22,663 bases of DNA from positions 1 to 22,663 of the IMG/VR virus record IMGVR_UViG_3300021165_000644; one strand, 5' to 3'. The translations under genes were made by a program, and so were the position numbers. Of this stretch, positions 1,866 through 9,973 are shown in pieces. This stretch comes from a virus. Within the stretch, counting starts at the first letter, position 1; the number at the start of each line of letters is the position of its first letter. The notes under the pieces are model-generated. The model was given only the letters and a program-made list of their open reading frames with translations. It did not search any database and was not told the DNA's origin.

Positions 1866-4800
1866 ATGGCAACAAACAGTAAAGTATTCGTATCTCCCGG
1901 GGTATATACTTCCGAAGTTGATTTAAGTTTCGTAGCACAGAGTGTGGGAGTTACCACATTAGGTATTGTTGGTGAGACACTTAGAGGTCCAGCTTTCGAA
2001 CCTATCTTTATACGAAATTTTGATGAATTTACTAACTTCTTTGGGGGTACAACACCTGAAAAATTTATTAATACACAAATACCGAAGTATGAAGCTTCGT
2101 ATATCGCAAAATCTTATTTACAACAATCTAATCAGTTGTTTGTTACAAGAATTTTGGGATTGTCAGGATATGACGCAGGACCATCTTGGTCTTTTAGAAC
2201 AATCGCGAACGTAGATAAATCAACTGTAGGATTCGAATGTTCAGGTTTTACATATGACTTAGCATTATGTGCTAACGTATGTACAGGATATACCATCACA
2301 CCATTTACATTTACTTTTACAGGTTGTAATAGTGGAATTGGAACTGTTGAAATATCTGGTACACCTTCTTCTACTTTAATAATAAATAAAATAAATGATA
2401 CTTACGAAACATTTAATGGTAGTACATCAAGACTTTTAGATGATATTCAATCTCAATTATTTGATATTATAACAACACCAAGTACATCAGCAACATCGAT
2501 TAACTACTACGGTACAATTTCGGGGTCTGATTATAACTCTTTAAGTGCGTATACTTCAGAAAATAATGTATATGGTATTGATAGTGTTAGTTCAACAAAT
2601 GCTGATTACACGGACGCAAATAATGACCCTTGGTATTATTCTTTATTTGATAATAATAGTGGCACATATAGTGGTTTTTCATTCTATAATGTTGTTAGTA
2701 ATTTAACACAAACATCATCATTATCAAATTGTGCGTCTTTCTATTCATTCTCAGTTAGTTCCGCAACAGTTTCAAACACTGTTGGTAGTATAAATTATAA
2801 TAACAATACTATTAGTGTTGTATTACCTTCAACAACACCAACATCAGGATTAACAGCGTTAACAGTAATGTTTAGTTCTTGTACTACGAATGTTAAAGTT
2901 AGTGGTGTAACACAACAAAGTTCAGGGTCAACACAAAATTTCTCAGCAGGAACTAAACAATATGTTTTAGTATCTCAAGATAGTGGGACAACAAATAATT
3001 GGACGGTTAATGTGACTATTAATAATCCTTGTAATCCTTCTACGTCAGGTAATACAGGAACTAATAATATAGGAATACTGACTACTTGTTATAGTGGAAC
3101 TGTAAGTGGTAAGATTTACACATATTCAGGGGTATCATATACTGATTTTGATGATATGGTTATTGCGACCCTACGTTCAAGAGGTATTGCAACTTACGGT
3201 ACAAATAGTGATGGACCAGTTTATGAAGTGACAGGAGCAACAGATGTGTCAATTAATTGTACCGCATCAACGTATTCTGACATTGCTAAAAACCCATTCT
3301 CAACATTTGGTCTTAATGTAACTGATTATGAAGGTAACACATTCTTCTTTGAAACATCATTTAGTGAATCAGATTCAAAATATTTACCTAAAGTATTTGG
3401 TTCTTCAAACTTTGCTAAACCAAGAACAACGGTTCCTGTATTTGTTGAAGAAAGATTTCAAGCTTTATTAAACTATGGTTATAATAAAGGTTATATTAGA
3501 GGTTTAAATTGTAATTTATTGGATTTACCAAGAGCCGCTGGTGGTGATTCAAGTTCAATAGCTTACTACTTAGAAAGATATCAAACACCGGTTTCTCCGT
3601 GGGTTGTTTCTGAGGTAAGAGGTAACAAGGTATTTAATTTATTTAGATTTGCAACTATATCTGATGGTAATGCGGCAAATACTGAAGTTAAGATATCAAT
3701 AGCAAATATGTCTTTTGGTAATTTAACTTTTGATATATTAGTTAGAGATTTCTATGATACAGATAATAATCCGGTAGTTATTGAGAAATTCACAAATTGT
3801 ACTATGAACCCTAACGATAATTCATTTGTTGCTAAGAAAATAGGTACAACTGATGGTGAGTATGAGTTAAATTCAAAATATATTATGGTTGAGATGAATG
3901 AAGACTCACCTATTGATACGTTACCTTGTGGATTCCAAGGGTTTAAATTCAGACAATATGGTTCATCAAGAGCACCATTCCCAATATATAAAACTAAATA
4001 TGATTTTCCTGGTGAAGTGGTATTTGACCCCCCATTTGGATTAAGTTCAGGTGGTAATGATGCTACGTTAAGTCCGGGTGATAATGTTCGTAGAACTTAT
4101 TTAGGAATTTCTACAGGAAACGGTGCCGGATATGATGTTGATTTCTTCCAATATAAAGGTAAACAAAAACCATTAAACTTATGTATTGATAGTGATGCTG
4201 CTGAATGGATAACATTAACAAAAGGTTTTCATATGGATAAAAATGCGAGTGGTATTACAATATCAAACGCATTTACTACAAGTGGAACTCCGGCATATTA
4301 CGTTGGTGATACAACATTTACTTCTGACCCAACAAGTGAATCAAGTCCTTACTACAGAATATACTCACGTAAATTCTCATTGTTAGTACAAGGTGGATTC
4401 GATGGGTGGGATATCTACAGAGAATCAAGAAGTAATACAGATACATTTAAATTAGGTAGAAGAGGTTTCTTAAATGGATACTGTCCGGATATCCAATATC
4501 CAACGGCTACAGGATGGGGAGCATTCAAGAAAATTACTGTTGGAAACAATAGTGTTGATTATGGTAATTCTGATTACTACGCATACTTATTAGGACAACA
4601 AACATTCTCAAATCCTGAGGCGGTTAATATTAACTTATTTGTTACTCCGGGTATTGATTATTCAAATAACTCTGACTTAGTTGGTGAAGCAATCGAAATG
4701 ATTGAGTTTAACAGAGCTGACTCATTATATATTTGTACAACAGCTGATAGTGATTTATTTATTCCAAGTCCTGACCCAAGTGCGTTAATCTATCCACAAG

Positions 4801-5456
4801 AGGCGGTAAATATTTTAGAAGAAAGTGGTATTGACTCTAACTATACTGCAACTTACTACCCTTGGGTATTAACGAGAGATAGTGTTAATAATACACAAAT
4901 CTACTTACCACCAACGGCAGAAGTTGTTAAAAACTTAGCGTTAACAGACAACATAGCTTTCCCTTGGTTCGCAGCGGCAGGTTATACAAGAGGTATCGTA
5001 AATGCTATTAAAGCGAGAAAGAAACTTACTCAAGAAGATAGAGACACACTTTATCAAGGTCGTCTTAATCCAATTGCAACTTTCTCTGATGTCGGAACAG
5101 TAATTTGGGGTAATAAAACTCTACAAGTAGCTCAATCAGCACTTGATAGAATAAATGTAAGAAGATTATTACTTCAAGCTCGTAAATTAATTTCAGCGGT
5201 ATCTGTAAGATTATTGTTTGAACAAAACGACCAAAAAGTAAGACAAGACTTCTTAGACGCGGTTAACCCTATCTTGGATGCAATCAGAAGAGACAGAGGT
5301 TTATATGATTTCCGAGTTACAGTATCATCAGACACTGCTGATTTAGATAGAAATCAAATGACTGGTAAGATTTATATCAAACCAACCAAATCGTTAGAAT
5401 TTATAGACATTACGTTCTATATTACTCCAACCGGAGCTTCTTTCGAGAATATATAA
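1866..5456 (+). CDS. Contractile tail sheath protein, T4 gp18-like, with large insertion
   Basis: A 1196-residue sheath subunit that polymerises around the tail tube and contracts on infection. The N-terminus (VSPGVYTSEVDLS at 9-21, VGETLRGPAFEP at 35-46, then FDEFTNFFGG at 52-61) is the standard phage sheath start. The last 150 residues (INVRRLLLQARKLISAVSVR, LFEQNDQ, then FLDAVNPILDAIRRDRGLYDF) are the conserved C-terminal sheath domain. T4 gp18 is 659 aa, so about 500 residues are extra. Residues of roughly 112-470 are Ser/Thr/Asn-rich with scattered Cys and contain an Ig-like beta domain. Tandem TAA stops end the gene. It begins its own unit behind a TATTTATA motif with an A-rich, SD-less leader, fitting a highly expressed late gene. 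Confidence 0.93.
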   Translation: MATNSKVFVSPGVYTSEVDLSFVAQSVGVTTLGIVGETLRGPAFEPIFIRNFDEFTNFFGGTTPEKFINTQIPKYEASYIAKSYLQQSNQLFVTRILGLSGYDAGPSWSFRTIANVDKSTVGFECSGFTYDLALCANVCTGYTITPFTFTFTGCNSGIGTVEISGTPSSTLIINKINDTYETFNGSTSRLLDDIQSQLFDIITTPSTSATSINYYGTISGSDYNSLSAYTSENNVYGIDSVSSTNADYTDANNDPWYYSLFDNNSGTYSGFSFYNVVSNLTQTSSLSNCASFYSFSVSSATVSNTVGSINYNNNTISVVLPSTTPTSGLTALTVMFSSCTTNVKVSGVTQQSSGSTQNFSAGTKQYVLVSQDSGTTNNWTVNVTINNPCNPSTSGNTGTNNIGILTTCYSGTVSGKIYTYSGVSYTDFDDMVIATLRSRGIATYGTNSDGPVYEVTGATDVSINCTASTYSDIAKNPFSTFGLNVTDYEGNTFFFETSFSESDSKYLPKVFGSSNFAKPRTTVPVFVEERFQALLNYGYNKGYIRGLNCNLLDLPRAAGGDSSSIAYYLERYQTPVSPWVVSEVRGNKVFNLFRFATISDGNAANTEVKISIANMSFGNLTFDILVRDFYDTDNNPVVIEKFTNCTMNPNDNSFVAKKIGTTDGEYELNSKYIMVEMNEDSPIDTLPCGFQGFKFRQYGSSRAPFPIYKTKYDFPGEVVFDPPFGLSSGGNDATLSPGDNVRRTYLGISTGNGAGYDVDFFQYKGKQKPLNLCIDSDAAEWITLTKGFHMDKNASGITISNAFTTSGTPAYYVGDTTFTSDPTSESSPYYRIYSRKFSLLVQGGFDGWDIYRESRSNTDTFKLGRRGFLNGYCPDIQYPTATGWGAFKKITVGNNSVDYGNSDYYAYLLGQQTFSNPEAVNINLFVTPGIDYSNNSDLVGEAIEMIEFNRADSLYICTTADSDLFIPSPDPSALIYPQEAVNILEESGIDSNYTATYYPWVLTRDSVNNTQIYLPPTAEVVKNLALTDNIAFPWFAAAGYTRGIVNAIKARKKLTQEDRDTLYQGRLNPIATFSDVGTVIWGNKTLQVAQSALDRINVRRLLLQARKLISAVSVRLLFEQNDQKVRQDFLDAVNPILDAIRRDRGLYDFRVTVSSDTADLDRNQMTGKIYIKPTKSLEFIDITFYITPTGASFENI
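2733..3026 (+). other. Ig-like beta-sandwich domain inserted in the sheath protein
   Basis: Residues about 290-387 run FYSFSVSSATV, VGSINYNNNTISVVLP, LTALTVMFSS, VKVSGVTQQSSGSTQNFS, YVLVSQDSGTTNNWTVNVTI. The order (strand, short I-x-V-x-L-P strand, the T-x-F-S strand, a Gly/Ser turn, then a final strand with D-S/G-T-T-x-x-W-T-V) resembles the Ig-like domains, DUF5018-type by my recollection, that are frequent in Bacteroidota secreted proteins. It is flanked by low-complexity Ser/Asn/Gly linkers, as expected for a surface-exposed decoration. Family assignment is by eye. Confidence 0.5.
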
Positions 5457-6490: not shown

Positions 6491-6979
6491 ATGGCTGATT
6501 TATTAATGAAAATGCCCATACCGTATGAACCAAAAAGAAATAATCGTTTTATTATGCGATTTCCATCAACATTAGGGATTAATGAATGGTTTGTTGAAAC
6601 GGCTAAAAGACCAAGTATTAAAATTAACGCAACTGAAATACCATTCTTAAATACTTCAACATATGTTGCGGGACGTTTTGTTTGGAACGAATTAGCTGTA
6701 ACTTTCAGAGACCCAATTGGGCCGTCTGCGTCACAAGCTTTAATGGAATGGATACGTCTATGTGCTGAATCAGTTACAGGTCGTATGGGATATGCTGCGG
6801 GTTACAAAAAAAATGTTGACCTTGAGATGTTAGACCCAACCGGTGTTGTTGTGGAAAAATGGATTTTAGAAGGAACATTTATTACAACATCTGATTTTGG
6901 TTCATTAAGTTATAGTGATGATAAAATTGCAACAATCAATACATCATTACGTATGGATAGATGTGTTTTAGTTTACTAA
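6491..6979 (+). CDS. Tail tube protein, T4 gp19-like
   Basis: A 162-residue protein, essentially the length of T4 gp19 (163 aa), which stacks as hexamers to form the inner tube. Recognisable are the N-terminal P-x-x-x-NRFIMRFPSTLGI (about residues 14-30), TAKRPSIKINATEIPFLN with the conserved K-RP segment (about 37-54), the tube-type strand WNELAVTFRDPIGPSASQAL, the helix MEWIRLCAESVTGRMGYAAGY, and the C-terminal strands LEMLDPTGVVVEKWILEGTF. No signal peptide or membrane span. It heads a transcription unit with its own motif and long A-rich leader, which fits high expression. Confidence 0.95.
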   Translation: MADLLMKMPIPYEPKRNNRFIMRFPSTLGINEWFVETAKRPSIKINATEIPFLNTSTYVAGRFVWNELAVTFRDPIGPSASQALMEWIRLCAESVTGRMGYAAGYKKNVDLEMLDPTGVVVEKWILEGTFITTSDFGSLSYSDDKIATINTSLRMDRCVLVY

Positions 6980-7189: not shown

Positions 7190-7214
7190 AAAACCCACGT
7201 TAGTGGGTTTTTTT
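7190..7214 (+). terminator. Rho-independent terminator after the tail tube unit
   Basis: A 9-bp stem (AAAACCCAC at 7190-7198 with GTGGGTTTT at 7203-7211), loop GTTA, followed by a T run continuing into TATTT. Classic plus-strand intrinsic terminator. Its T tail runs directly into the next TATTTATA motif. Confidence 0.88.
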
Positions 7215-7265: not shown

Positions 7266-8021
7266 ATGGAACAAAATATTATGGATGCTGCAACACAAGG
7301 TTTTAACTTACCTCACGATGTTGTTCAATTACCTACTGGCGGTATATTTTATCAATCAAAAAAGAAATCGGTTAAAGTTGGTTATTTAACGGCTAATGAT
7401 GAAAATTATTTAGTTGGTTCAGGTATTAGTGGTGAAAACATTATTTTATCATTATTAAGAAATAAAATATATGAGCATGATTTAAGACCCGAAGAATTAT
7501 TAAATGGTGATGTTGAAGCTATTTTAATATTCTTAAGAAATACGTCATTTGGAACCGAATATAAATTAAATTTAATTGACCCTAAAACTGATAAATCATT
7601 TGTTGCTACAATTTTATTAGATGAATTAAATATTAAACAAACAACTATAAAACCTGATGAAAATGGTTTATTTACAACGACATTACCAAAAAGTGGTAAA
7701 ACCGTTAAATTAAGACCTACCACATTTTTTGATACGGTAGAATTGGATAGAATGGTTAATCAATATCCTGCCGGAAGACAAGCACCGAGGGTGACTTGGA
7801 AATTAAATCAACATATCGTTGAATTTGATGGGGATACCGATAAAGGTAAAATCGCGGCTTATGTTGAGACATTACCAATTAGTGATTCAAAATACATAAG
7901 ACAATTTTTAAGAGATAATGAACCATCATTAGATTTAAGTAGACAAGTAATCGCCCCTTCAGGAGAACTGGTATCTTTCGAGATAACCTTTGGGGTGGAC
8001 TTTTTTCGCCCTTTCTTCTAA
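7266..8021 (+). CDS. T4 gp26-family baseplate / tail assembly chaperone-like protein, frame-0 product
   Basis: A 251-residue protein. LPTGGIFY (residues 22-29), LTANDENYLVGSGISGENII, and LLNGDVEAILIFLRNTSFGT (78-97) fit the pattern of the T4 gp26/tail-chaperone family (LPS-G-hy-Y, T-x-x-DE, then LL-x-GD-x-x-LL-x-x-R). A second beta region, LPKSGKTVKLRPTTFFDTVE, follows. The frame also opens at a GTG at 7203, but that lies inside the terminator stem; ATG 7266, with an A-rich leader, is the sensible start. The position between tube and tape-measure genes is that of the tail assembly chaperones that shepherd the tape measure. The frame ends right after DFFRPFF, and a second frame continues downstream (see 8008-8163). 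Confidence 0.8.
   Translation: MEQNIMDAATQGFNLPHDVVQLPTGGIFYQSKKKSVKVGYLTANDENYLVGSGISGENIILSLLRNKIYEHDLRPEELLNGDVEAILIFLRNTSFGTEYKLNLIDPKTDKSFVATILLDELNIKQTTIKPDENGLFTTTLPKSGKTVKLRPTTFFDTVELDRMVNQYPAGRQAPRVTWKLNQHIVEFDGDTDKGKIAAYVETLPISDSKYIRQFLRDNEPSLDLSRQVIAPSGELVSFEITFGVDFFRPFF
8001..8009 (+). promoter_or_regulatory. Candidate +1 ribosomal frameshift site TTT TTT CGC
   Basis: Frame 0 reads GAC TTT TTT CGC. A tRNA-Phe in the P site on TTT (8004-8006) can slip one base forward to TTC (8005-8007), a full match for its GAA anticodon, while the A site faces CGC, a rarely used Arg codon in this AGA-rich genome. The new frame continues GCC and stays open to 8163. A -2 slip on the T run would give the same frame. 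A one-base homopolymer error in assembly is the alternative. Confidence 0.6.
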
Positions 8022-8163
8022 TCATAGACAAGGTCTAATTGAGGAGTATTATTTTTTAGCTCGTTATATTAGACTTTCATATTCAGATTTTAATATAATG
8101 CCGACGTATGTAAGAAAATATCTTGTAGACCGGATAATCGAAGATAATACACCAAAGACGTAA
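8008..8163 (+). CDS. C-terminal extension of the tail chaperone in the +1 frame (frameshift product of 7266-8163)
   Basis: After the T6 run the +1 frame is open for 51 more codons: ALSSNHRQGLIEEYYFLARY, then IRLSYSDFNIMPTYVRKYLV and DRIIEDN, ending at TAA 8161-8163. It contains no ATG except one 18 codons from its end, and no independent start region, so it is most simply made as a fusion of about 298 residues with the preceding protein. The pattern (hydrophobic helix, S-Y-S-D-F, then M-P-x-Y-x-R and an amphipathic helix) resembles the second part of tail assembly chaperones, where a small fraction of ribosomes shift frame to make the longer form that contacts the tape measure. The stop codon lies in the loop of the following terminator hairpin. 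Confidence 0.7.
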   Translation, partial: ALSSNHRQGLIEEYYFLARYIRLSYSDFNIMPTYVRKYLVDRIIEDNTPKT

Positions 8164-8187
8164 TTTAAAACTACTCTTTGGTGTATT
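8146..8187 (+). terminator. Terminator between the tail chaperone and tape measure genes
   Basis: A 13-bp stem (8146-8158, core ACACCAAAGA, with 8175-8187, core TCTTTGGTGT) around a 16-base loop holding the chaperone extension's stop codon, followed by ATTTATTT-like T-rich sequence. It reads as a plus-strand intrinsic terminator, with a longer loop than usual. Confidence 0.7.
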
Positions 8188-8209: not shown

Positions 8210-9973
8210 ATGGCAAAAGGGATAAAAGATTTTACCGCAGCACAAACACAATTAGTACTTGATATAGATAATTTAAGTAGTAAAATGTTAGCCCAATTCG
8301 GTATGACCGAAAAAATGGCTCAGTCAATGAGAGCGGCAATGGCTTTATCGTTGGATGCTATACAAGATATGGGGGGTACTCTCCAAGATGTTGAGAACTT
8401 ACAAAAAAGTGTTGCCGAAAGTTTAGGTAGAGCGGTAACACTAAGTGCCAATGGTGCTAAAGACTTATACGCGTCATTTAAAGTTACCGGTCAAGAAGTT
8501 ACTAAAATGGTTAGTGGTATGGCGGATGTTGGTGTATCGGCTTATAACACTGCGTCTGAAATGAAAAAAGTTGTAGATATTTCTCGTGAATCCGGGGTTA
8601 ATGCTCAGGCAGTATCAGGTAAAGTTTTAGATAATATGAAATACCTTAACCAATTCAATTTTGAAGGGGGTGTTTCAGGTTTAGCTAAAATGGCGGCCCA
8701 AGCGAGTATGTTAAGAATTGATATGAAATCAACATTAGATTTTGCAGAAAAAGTGTATAACCCTGAAGGGGCTATTGAAACAGCAGCGGCTTTACAAAGA
8801 TTAGGTGTTACCCAAGGTGATTTATTAGACCCATTAAAATTATTGGATTTATCACAAAATGACCCAGCGGAATTACAAAATCAAATTGCTCAAATGAGTA
8901 AACAATTTGTAAAATTAAAAGAGGATGGTTCTGGGTTTGAAATTATGAAGGGTGGTAAACGTCAAATGCAAGAAATTGCTAAAGCGATGGGGATGCCCTA
9001 TACCGAATTAACTAAAATGGCTTTAGCGGGAGCGGATTTAGATAAGAAATTGAAAGAAATAAGTTTTCCAAAAGATTTTAGTAGTGAGGAAGATAGAAAA
9101 CTTATTGCTAATATGGCGGAAATGGGTACGGGTGGAAAATATCAAGTTACTATTGGTGATGAAACTAAAGATGTTGACCAACTTACACCTGAAGATTTTG
9201 CAAAACTTAAAGAAGCCGCTGAAAAAGGTCCACTAACTATGGAGGAGTTAGCTAAACAACAATTATCGGCTCTACAAACAATTGCGGGAGGTATCGCAAA
9301 ACTTGTTTCAACTCCGGCAACAGCTTTGGCTAAATCATATACCGGTGACGAATTATTGACATTAGCAAAAGGGGTTATGCCGGCAATAAATGATTCTTTA
9401 GACCCAAATTTAAAAGCTAATAAGATGGGTAAAAATCTTGACGAAACAGTTGCTGGTGGTAATTCTATTAGTGATTTTTTGATGGGTACGTCAAAAGCTC
9501 TTATGTCTTCTACAACAAATTTTGCTGAGGCTATGGATAAACTAACTCAAAAAATGCCATTATTAAGTAATGGTCTTCAACAAATACTTGATAAGATGAA
9601 TATTGGTAATCCACTTGTTCAAGCCAAAGACGTTTTAAAAATGCCGGGTCAAGATATTCAATTATTACCGGAAGACACTTTTGCTGCATTTACAAAAGGT
9701 AGTGATGTTTTATCTAAACTCACTGGGTCAAATAATACATCTACACCACCATCATCAACTAATTCTACTGTAGATTTAACACATACATTAAATATTAATA
9801 TAACAGCACCTAGTAATGTTAATACAGACCAAGTCATCGCAATGTTTAATGACACCGGTGTTTCACAAGCTTTAGGTGTTGCGGTTAAAGAGGCATTTAC
9901 TAATGGGGGATTAACAACATCCAACCCTAATAAACAACAATTAATGAATTCAGGAAATTTACAATACTCTTAA
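8210..9973 (+). CDS. Tape measure protein (T4 gp29-like length)
   Basis: A 587-residue, mostly helical Ala/Met/Lys-rich protein directly after the chaperone gene, the standard position of the tape measure that sets tail length and occupies the tube lumen. T4 gp29 is 590 aa, so a tail near T4 length (about 90 nm at 1.5 angstrom per residue) is predicted. The N-terminal half has repeated amphipathic helices (MAQSMRAAMALSLDAIQDMG, DNLSSKMLAQFG). The middle has LAKQQLSALQTIAGGIAKLV. The C-terminus after a Ser/Thr/Pro linker (about residues 508-522) has a small beta-alpha end, THTLNINITAPSNVNTDQVI, seen in many tape measures. No clear transmembrane segment. Identity with gp29 is not shown by sequence, only by role, size and place. 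Confidence 0.8.
   Translation: MAKGIKDFTAAQTQLVLDIDNLSSKMLAQFGMTEKMAQSMRAAMALSLDAIQDMGGTLQDVENLQKSVAESLGRAVTLSANGAKDLYASFKVTGQEVTKMVSGMADVGVSAYNTASEMKKVVDISRESGVNAQAVSGKVLDNMKYLNQFNFEGGVSGLAKMAAQASMLRIDMKSTLDFAEKVYNPEGAIETAAALQRLGVTQGDLLDPLKLLDLSQNDPAELQNQIAQMSKQFVKLKEDGSGFEIMKGGKRQMQEIAKAMGMPYTELTKMALAGADLDKKLKEISFPKDFSSEEDRKLIANMAEMGTGGKYQVTIGDETKDVDQLTPEDFAKLKEAAEKGPLTMEELAKQQLSALQTIAGGIAKLVSTPATALAKSYTGDELLTLAKGVMPAINDSLDPNLKANKMGKNLDETVAGGNSISDFLMGTSKALMSSTTNFAEAMDKLTQKMPLLSNGLQQILDKMNIGNPLVQAKDVLKMPGQDIQLLPEDTFAAFTKGSDVLSKLTGSNNTSTPPSSTNSTVDLTHTLNINITAPSNVNTDQVIAMFNDTGVSQALGVAVKEAFTNGGLTTSNPNKQQLMNSGNLQYS

Follow-up and report, generated by a model that had tools for sequence, protein, structure and literature searches.

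Frameshifting between G and T is described as conserved in the long-tailed phages "except T4" (2016 review, PMC5009743), and for lambda gpG/gpGT and SPP1 gp17.5/17.5* it is a −1 shift at UUUUUUC (PMC6316719). The tail chaperone of the myovirus HSTV-2 is very likely made by a +1 shift (PMC5009743). Tail assembly chaperone genes of T4-like phages were identified by Vladimirov, Gautam and Davidson in 2022, and as that work is cited some T4-like phages have a short gene and a long fusion gene in place of frameshifting (PMC10274946) and poly-T −1 signals occur in T4-like chaperone genes (PMC12846349). Going by these citing papers the two-gene form is published and the −1 form apparently so too, and an initial remark that a described T4-type case was not known needs qualifying to that extent; no description of a +1 class in T4-type chaperones was found in the open-access literature, where absence is not proof. 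Sullivan and co-workers (2010) reported cyanophage gp51 at some 20% of the length of T4 gp51, and scored gp51 as missing in Aeh1 (PMC3037559).

The window, by which is meant the whole 22.7-kb IMG/VR virus fragment analysed here, carries the tail module of a T4-type contractile phage, including the sheath (1866-5456) and baseplate genes; a DNA-level search of an isolate phage collection gave no matches. A gp26-like gene sits between the tube gene and a putative tape measure gene, as is the case for chaperones of the G/GT kind, and the order sheath, tube, gp26, tape measure is found also in SP-15, LIS04 and immuto. The tape measure assignment is made from position and is weak by profile (TMP_3, 23.9 bits, under the TMP_3 cut-off). 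The features of this region are:

6491..6979, + strand, tail tube protein gene, upstream (phrog_4542, 2.4e-24)
7190..7211, + strand, terminator-like hairpin before the gp26-like gene
7266..8021, + strand, gp26-family gene, frame-0 product (short form, TAC-N equivalent), 251 aa
8001..8007, + strand, proposed shift site TTT TTT C, where the P-site TTT (8004-8006) would re-pair to TTC (8005-8007)
8007..8009, + strand, rare Arg codon CGC in the A site, CGN in 53/55 relatives
8008..8163, + strand, +1-frame C-terminal extension, 51 codons and stop, homologous to the T4 gp51 C-terminus
8019..8021, + strand, frame-0 stop codon TAA, which is TAA, TAG or TGA among relatives
8146..8187, no strand assigned, inverted repeat, seen as a self match on reverse complementation, that overlaps the stop of the +1 frame; candidate terminator
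8210..9973, + strand, putative tape measure protein gene, 587 aa, directly downstream

Membership of the gp26 family comes from matches to PF12322 T4_baseplate (27.3 bits, above the curated cut-off of 24.5) and to phrog_150 (2.8e-11). At the junction frame 0 reads GTG GAC TTT TTT CGC CCT TTC TTC TAA and the short form so ends ...GVDFFRPFF; in the +1 frame no stop is met between the T6 run (8001-8006) and 8161-8163, and the segment encoded is ALSSNHRQGLIEEYYFLARYIRLSYSDFNIMPTYVRKYLVDRIIEDNTPKT. The preliminary description had given the frame-0 stop at 8021 and the open +1 frame to 8163 exactly, and its 298-aa fused length is reproduced when the frames are joined by reading TTTC, which occurs in frame once only within the gene, as one step. 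It is very probable that programmed +1 ribosomal frameshifting yields a T4-type tail assembly chaperone in a short and a long form from this arrangement, and the two products are predicted from sequence to have a common N-terminus; we infer the ribosomal nature of the slip, its efficiency and the chaperone function.

Two IMG/VR scans yielded 152 loci covering the junction, of which 55 are non-redundant at below 95% DNA identity. The broken frame, whose conservation in related phages had been proposed as a check, is kept in all 152, most of them 65-95% identical to the window. Across the 55 non-redundant relatives the +1 extension is free of stops in every case and each of the other two frames is interrupted in every case, the probability that a shuffled extension stays open being 0.016. 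Differences among the 55 relatives across the extension fall at codon positions 1, 2 and 3 in the numbers 17009, 11010 and 28715, a third-position excess in the +1 frame, and so the +1 extension evolves as protein-coding sequence. No conserved start codon is present in the extension of these 55, the first ATG, GTG or TTG lying anywhere from codon 9 to codon 35. With its coding pattern and no conserved start the +1 frame thus behaves as a translated segment best reached from gp26. The −1 frame closes shortly past the junction in the window and in its relatives, and a canonical −1 signal (X XXY YYZ) is not what is found there.

Constraint at the junction itself is unusual. The second Phe codon is TTT and is followed by C in 152/152 relatives (55/55 of the non-redundant set); the first Phe codon is TTT in 150 and TTC in two. 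Among the 7,078 codons of the window genes there is a single in-frame TTT TTT C and a single in-frame TTT CG. In the A site 53 of the 55 have CGN, the exceptions (L036 and L097) having CTC, and elsewhere in the gene Arg is encoded by AGA in 81.7% of cases, by CGC in 0.4% and by CGG in 0/530, to be set against CGC or CGG at 39/55 A sites and about 2/530 Arg codons elsewhere. A conserved and presumably shift-prone P-site codon able to re-pair at +1 is followed, then, by a rare CGN in an AGA-using gene, which would be a slow A-site codon, and the originally suggested slip from TTT to TTC before a rare Arg codon fits these comparative data. The third base of the CGN takes all four values, giving A, D, G or V as the first residue of the extension, and although this is a non-synonymous site in the +1 frame it varies freely; it is therefore frame 0, and not the +1 residue, that is under maintenance. 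One relative (L036) lacks the frame-0 stop of the window, and its frame 0 stops two codons later.

In the proposed scheme most ribosomes would read on in frame 0 and release the 251-aa short form ending FFRPFF. A fraction would slip +1, the peptidyl tRNA-Phe on the second TTT re-pairing with TTC with the rare CGN waiting in the A site, and would go on to make the 298-aa long form with its helical C-terminal domain. By analogy with lambda G and GT, coating of the tape measure protein would fall to the short form, and the extra domain of the long form would recruit tail tube subunits. AlphaFold2 models were made of the short form and of the extension, each by itself: the extension alone gave three helices at pLDDT 92 and found no match by Foldseek against BFVD, and the short-form model was poor (pLDDT 63), with no usable Foldseek match against the PDB and weak matches, below significance, to the annotated chaperones of Rhodococcus phage Finch and Gordonia phage Teatealatte.

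Two elements upstream of the shift site are candidates for stimulating it:

7953..7957, + strand, invariant GCCCC, candidate upstream stem with GGGGT at 7992-7996
7992..7998, + strand, SD-like GGGGTGG shortly before the shift site, candidate stimulator

Five codons ahead of the shift, Gly is encoded by GGG in 55/55 relatives against a background of about 10% in the gene, and the anti-SD duplex at GGGGTGG is worth about −8.5 kcal/mol against a gene mean of −0.9. Similarly 55/55 use GCC for the Ala at 7953, against a background of 8%, and the GCCCC/GGGGT stem has a column-shuffle z of about −4. As both the GCCCC and the GGGGT halves are invariant there is no covariation by which to test the pairing, and the stem and SD-like readings both fit; either GGGGTGG or the GCCCC/GGGG stem may act as a stimulator. 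The GGGG element is missing from several other +1 phages. Over 7953-7996 (GCCCC...GGGGT) synonymous sites are conserved for some 55 nt before the shift site, which exceeds the need of the shift codon alone. A terminator-like hairpin at 7992-8012 with the T run in its loop was considered and rejected, since it needs CGC and is broken in the relatives with CGA, CGG, CGT or CTC. Downstream stimulatory RNA structure was not found, the consensus from +9 to +110 being unpaired.

The same +1 layout is seen in distant phages, namely SP-15, LIS04, GXN1, Flavobacterium phage immuto, Microcystis phage Mel-JY01 and the 484-kb phage LR756508. Four further viral scans, with the immuto, Mel-JY01, LR756508 and SP-15 groups, gave 176 scorable loci, of which 169 are +1 (167 as scored, and L325 and L354 on inspection); the remaining seven comprise five cut off by contig ends and two exceptions, L276 and L281. 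An in-frame TTT followed by T or C is present in 107/107 distinct junctions counted, TTT TTT TGG CCT being the commonest, and A-site codons elsewhere among the +1 phages include CTT, CTA, TGG and CAC. Two annotated small genes, SP15_046 (L085, 4740-4859) and immuto gp038 (L162, 3330-3440), are internal parts of the +1 extension and in its frame.

Of the rival explanations a −2 ribosomal slip on TTTTTT, which would give VDFFFALSS, or else slippage of RNA polymerase along the T run, survives best, and is improbable. Either gives the same resulting frame and the TTTTTT of the window would permit either, and LIS04, with TTT TTT AGT, is compatible with −2 on TTTTTTA, any +1 slip there having to be at the first TTT. 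However the layout is kept where there is no permissive T run, as in L154 and L158 (TTC TTT CGN), Streptococcus phage GXN1 (TTC TTT CGT), LR756508 (AAC TTT CTA), immuto (AGC TTT CTT) and eight further junctions with TTC TTT TGG. Re-pairing from TTT to TTC is possible at the L154, L158, GXN1, LR756508 and immuto junctions, and since these lack a suitable T run −2 and polymerase slippage are excluded as general mechanisms. Of the "+1 (or −2)" put forward at the outset, it is the +1 reading that fits, and loci such as those with TTC TTT CGN and AAC TTT CTA take −2 out as a general mechanism.

Slightly less probable again is independent expression of the extension as a small gene, whose own start, or re-initiation, would give a free C-terminal peptide like the annotated "gp51" of cyanophages and KVP40. 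Own ATG codons on the extension do occur in LR756511, L276 and L281, and SP-15 and immuto are annotated with short separate ORFs. In the clade of the window there is however no conserved start, the first candidate often lies inside the helical domain, and conservation of the +1 frame begins at the TTT run itself. The claim that the extension has no start of its own needs amending to the extent that the window has an internal ATG at 8099, one that is not conserved (several relatives having IPT), and downstream segments with their own start, which had been named as a finding that would tell against frameshifting, are seen in LR756511, L276 and L281, all three of which have left the +1 frame relation. 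In the 595-kb phage LR756511 (L086) the ATG that opens the downstream segment, near 3820, overlaps the stop of gp26 (TAATGGATG), and the tail of frame 0 is rich in Arg. In L276 and L281 the TTT at the site is lost (TTC TTG and TTC CTT) and the extension, which lies in a different frame, has an ATG of its own; judged by these sequences, both have apparently escaped from frameshifting. A homopolymer error in sequencing or assembly, with T5 misread as T6 so as to hide a single uninterrupted 298-aa gene, is excluded, for while T6 runs are error-prone in some technologies, the identical break recurs in some 150 contigs from many metagenomes and in isolate genomes, none of the 152 junction-covering relatives has one uninterrupted frame, no long run is present where the site reads TTC TTT C or AAC TTT C, and the varying frame-0 stops (TAA, TAG, TGA) and free CGN third base look as if frame 0 is translated.

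Programmed +1 frameshifting is thus the preferred reading, and the gp51-like nature of what it would append is seen by comparison with other phages. PF12322 is matched by both T4 gp26 (8.8e-64) and T4 gp51 (3.9e-52), and T4 gp51 consists of the gp26 core and about 45 further residues. A −1 type is found in 16 other single-gene phages, among them P-SSM2, KVP40, Ah1, Cr30, 121Q and RaK2, in which frame 0 reads T TTT TTN, a stop usually follows one codon later and the extension is in the −1 frame. The P-SSM2 and KVP40 extensions match phrog_634, the gp51 C-terminal family, together with T4 gp51, and the extension of Ah1, which is unannotated, is picked up by the C-terminal columns of the phrog_150 model. 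Profile alignment runs through the join for the long forms of the window clade against other +1 long forms (E 3.5e-37), for +1 long forms against −1 long forms (E 3.6e-16) and for −1 forms against gp51, these E-values being pairwise, not database-calibrated and drawn from related sequences that are not independent. Profiles of the extension alone score 36.5, 45.4 and 21.7 against shuffled maxima of 17.1, 14.6 and 13.6. The window clade compared directly with T4 gp51 alone gives E 0.55, and the extension of the window, taken by itself, matches no PHROG or Pfam family directly; since direct comparison with gp51 failed, the homology runs through intermediates, by way of which the window extension is recognised as a gp51-type C-terminal domain. 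In RaK2 (L169), PA5oct (L165) and Ah1 (L180) the −1 frame directly beyond the gp26 stop holds a gp51-type extension that carries no gene annotation. The families phrog_634 (cyanophages and KVP40) and phrog_18291 (121Q and RaK2) are apparently out-of-frame C-terminal halves of gp26-family chaperones and not independent genes.

Core genes matching PF12322 or phrog_150 number one in each of 18 single-gene genomes or large contigs and two in T4 and RB43. The +1 phages cluster together in a tree of the core (support 90/89, which is below the starred level), with the −1 group of jumbo phages next to them, and gp26 and gp51 of T4-like phages come together next to KVP40 and Ah1, a placement that is as expected if duplication within Straboviridae replaced frameshifting. 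The T4 gene pair looks like such a duplication.

Overall the T4-type family itself appears, from its reading frames, to frameshift in both directions in the single-gene members examined. We hold it rather probable that the two forms of the chaperone are made across the family by −1 shifting, by +1 shifting or from duplicated genes, with changes between −1 and +1 at the same spot through re-phasing of a T-rich string, and that the +1 phages make up an undescribed clade, large and old, whose hosts are Bacteroidota, Firmicutes and cyanobacteria. The shortness of cyanophage "gp51" is then explicable, the rest of the protein being supplied by gp26, and this perhaps also explains the gp51 scored missing in Aeh1, for which the unannotated extension of Ah1, taken as a relative of Aeh1, would suggest why. 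With −1 and +1 sites at the same position, one family offers a natural system for studying what sets the direction of a shift.

Where T4 has two paralogous genes (26 short, 51 long) and does not frameshift, the window combines a single gene with a +1 shift; T4 gp26, ending GLKEFFELL, is the counterpart of the short form ending GVDFFRPFF, and gp51 that of the long form. The cyanophages, KVP40, Ah1, Cr30, 121Q, RaK2 and others share with the window the core and the C-terminal domain, joined at the same place and often on the same letters TTTTTTC, read as T TTT TTN in the −1 type and as TTT TTT C with a +1 extension in the window. Lambda gpG/gpGT and SPP1 gp17.5/17.5* are likened to the window by layout, having short and long chaperone forms from a gene before the tape measure, but their shift is −1 and that of the window +1. 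HSTV-2, an archaeal virus, is likened to it by the +1 direction in a tail chaperone. The bacterial prfB gene undergoes a +1 frameshift at CUU UGA. It resembles the window in that the slip is forward, on a codon rich in U, and that an SD-like element, at uncertain spacing in the window, closely precedes it, and differs in that a stop codon occupies the A site in prfB and a sense codon does so in the window.
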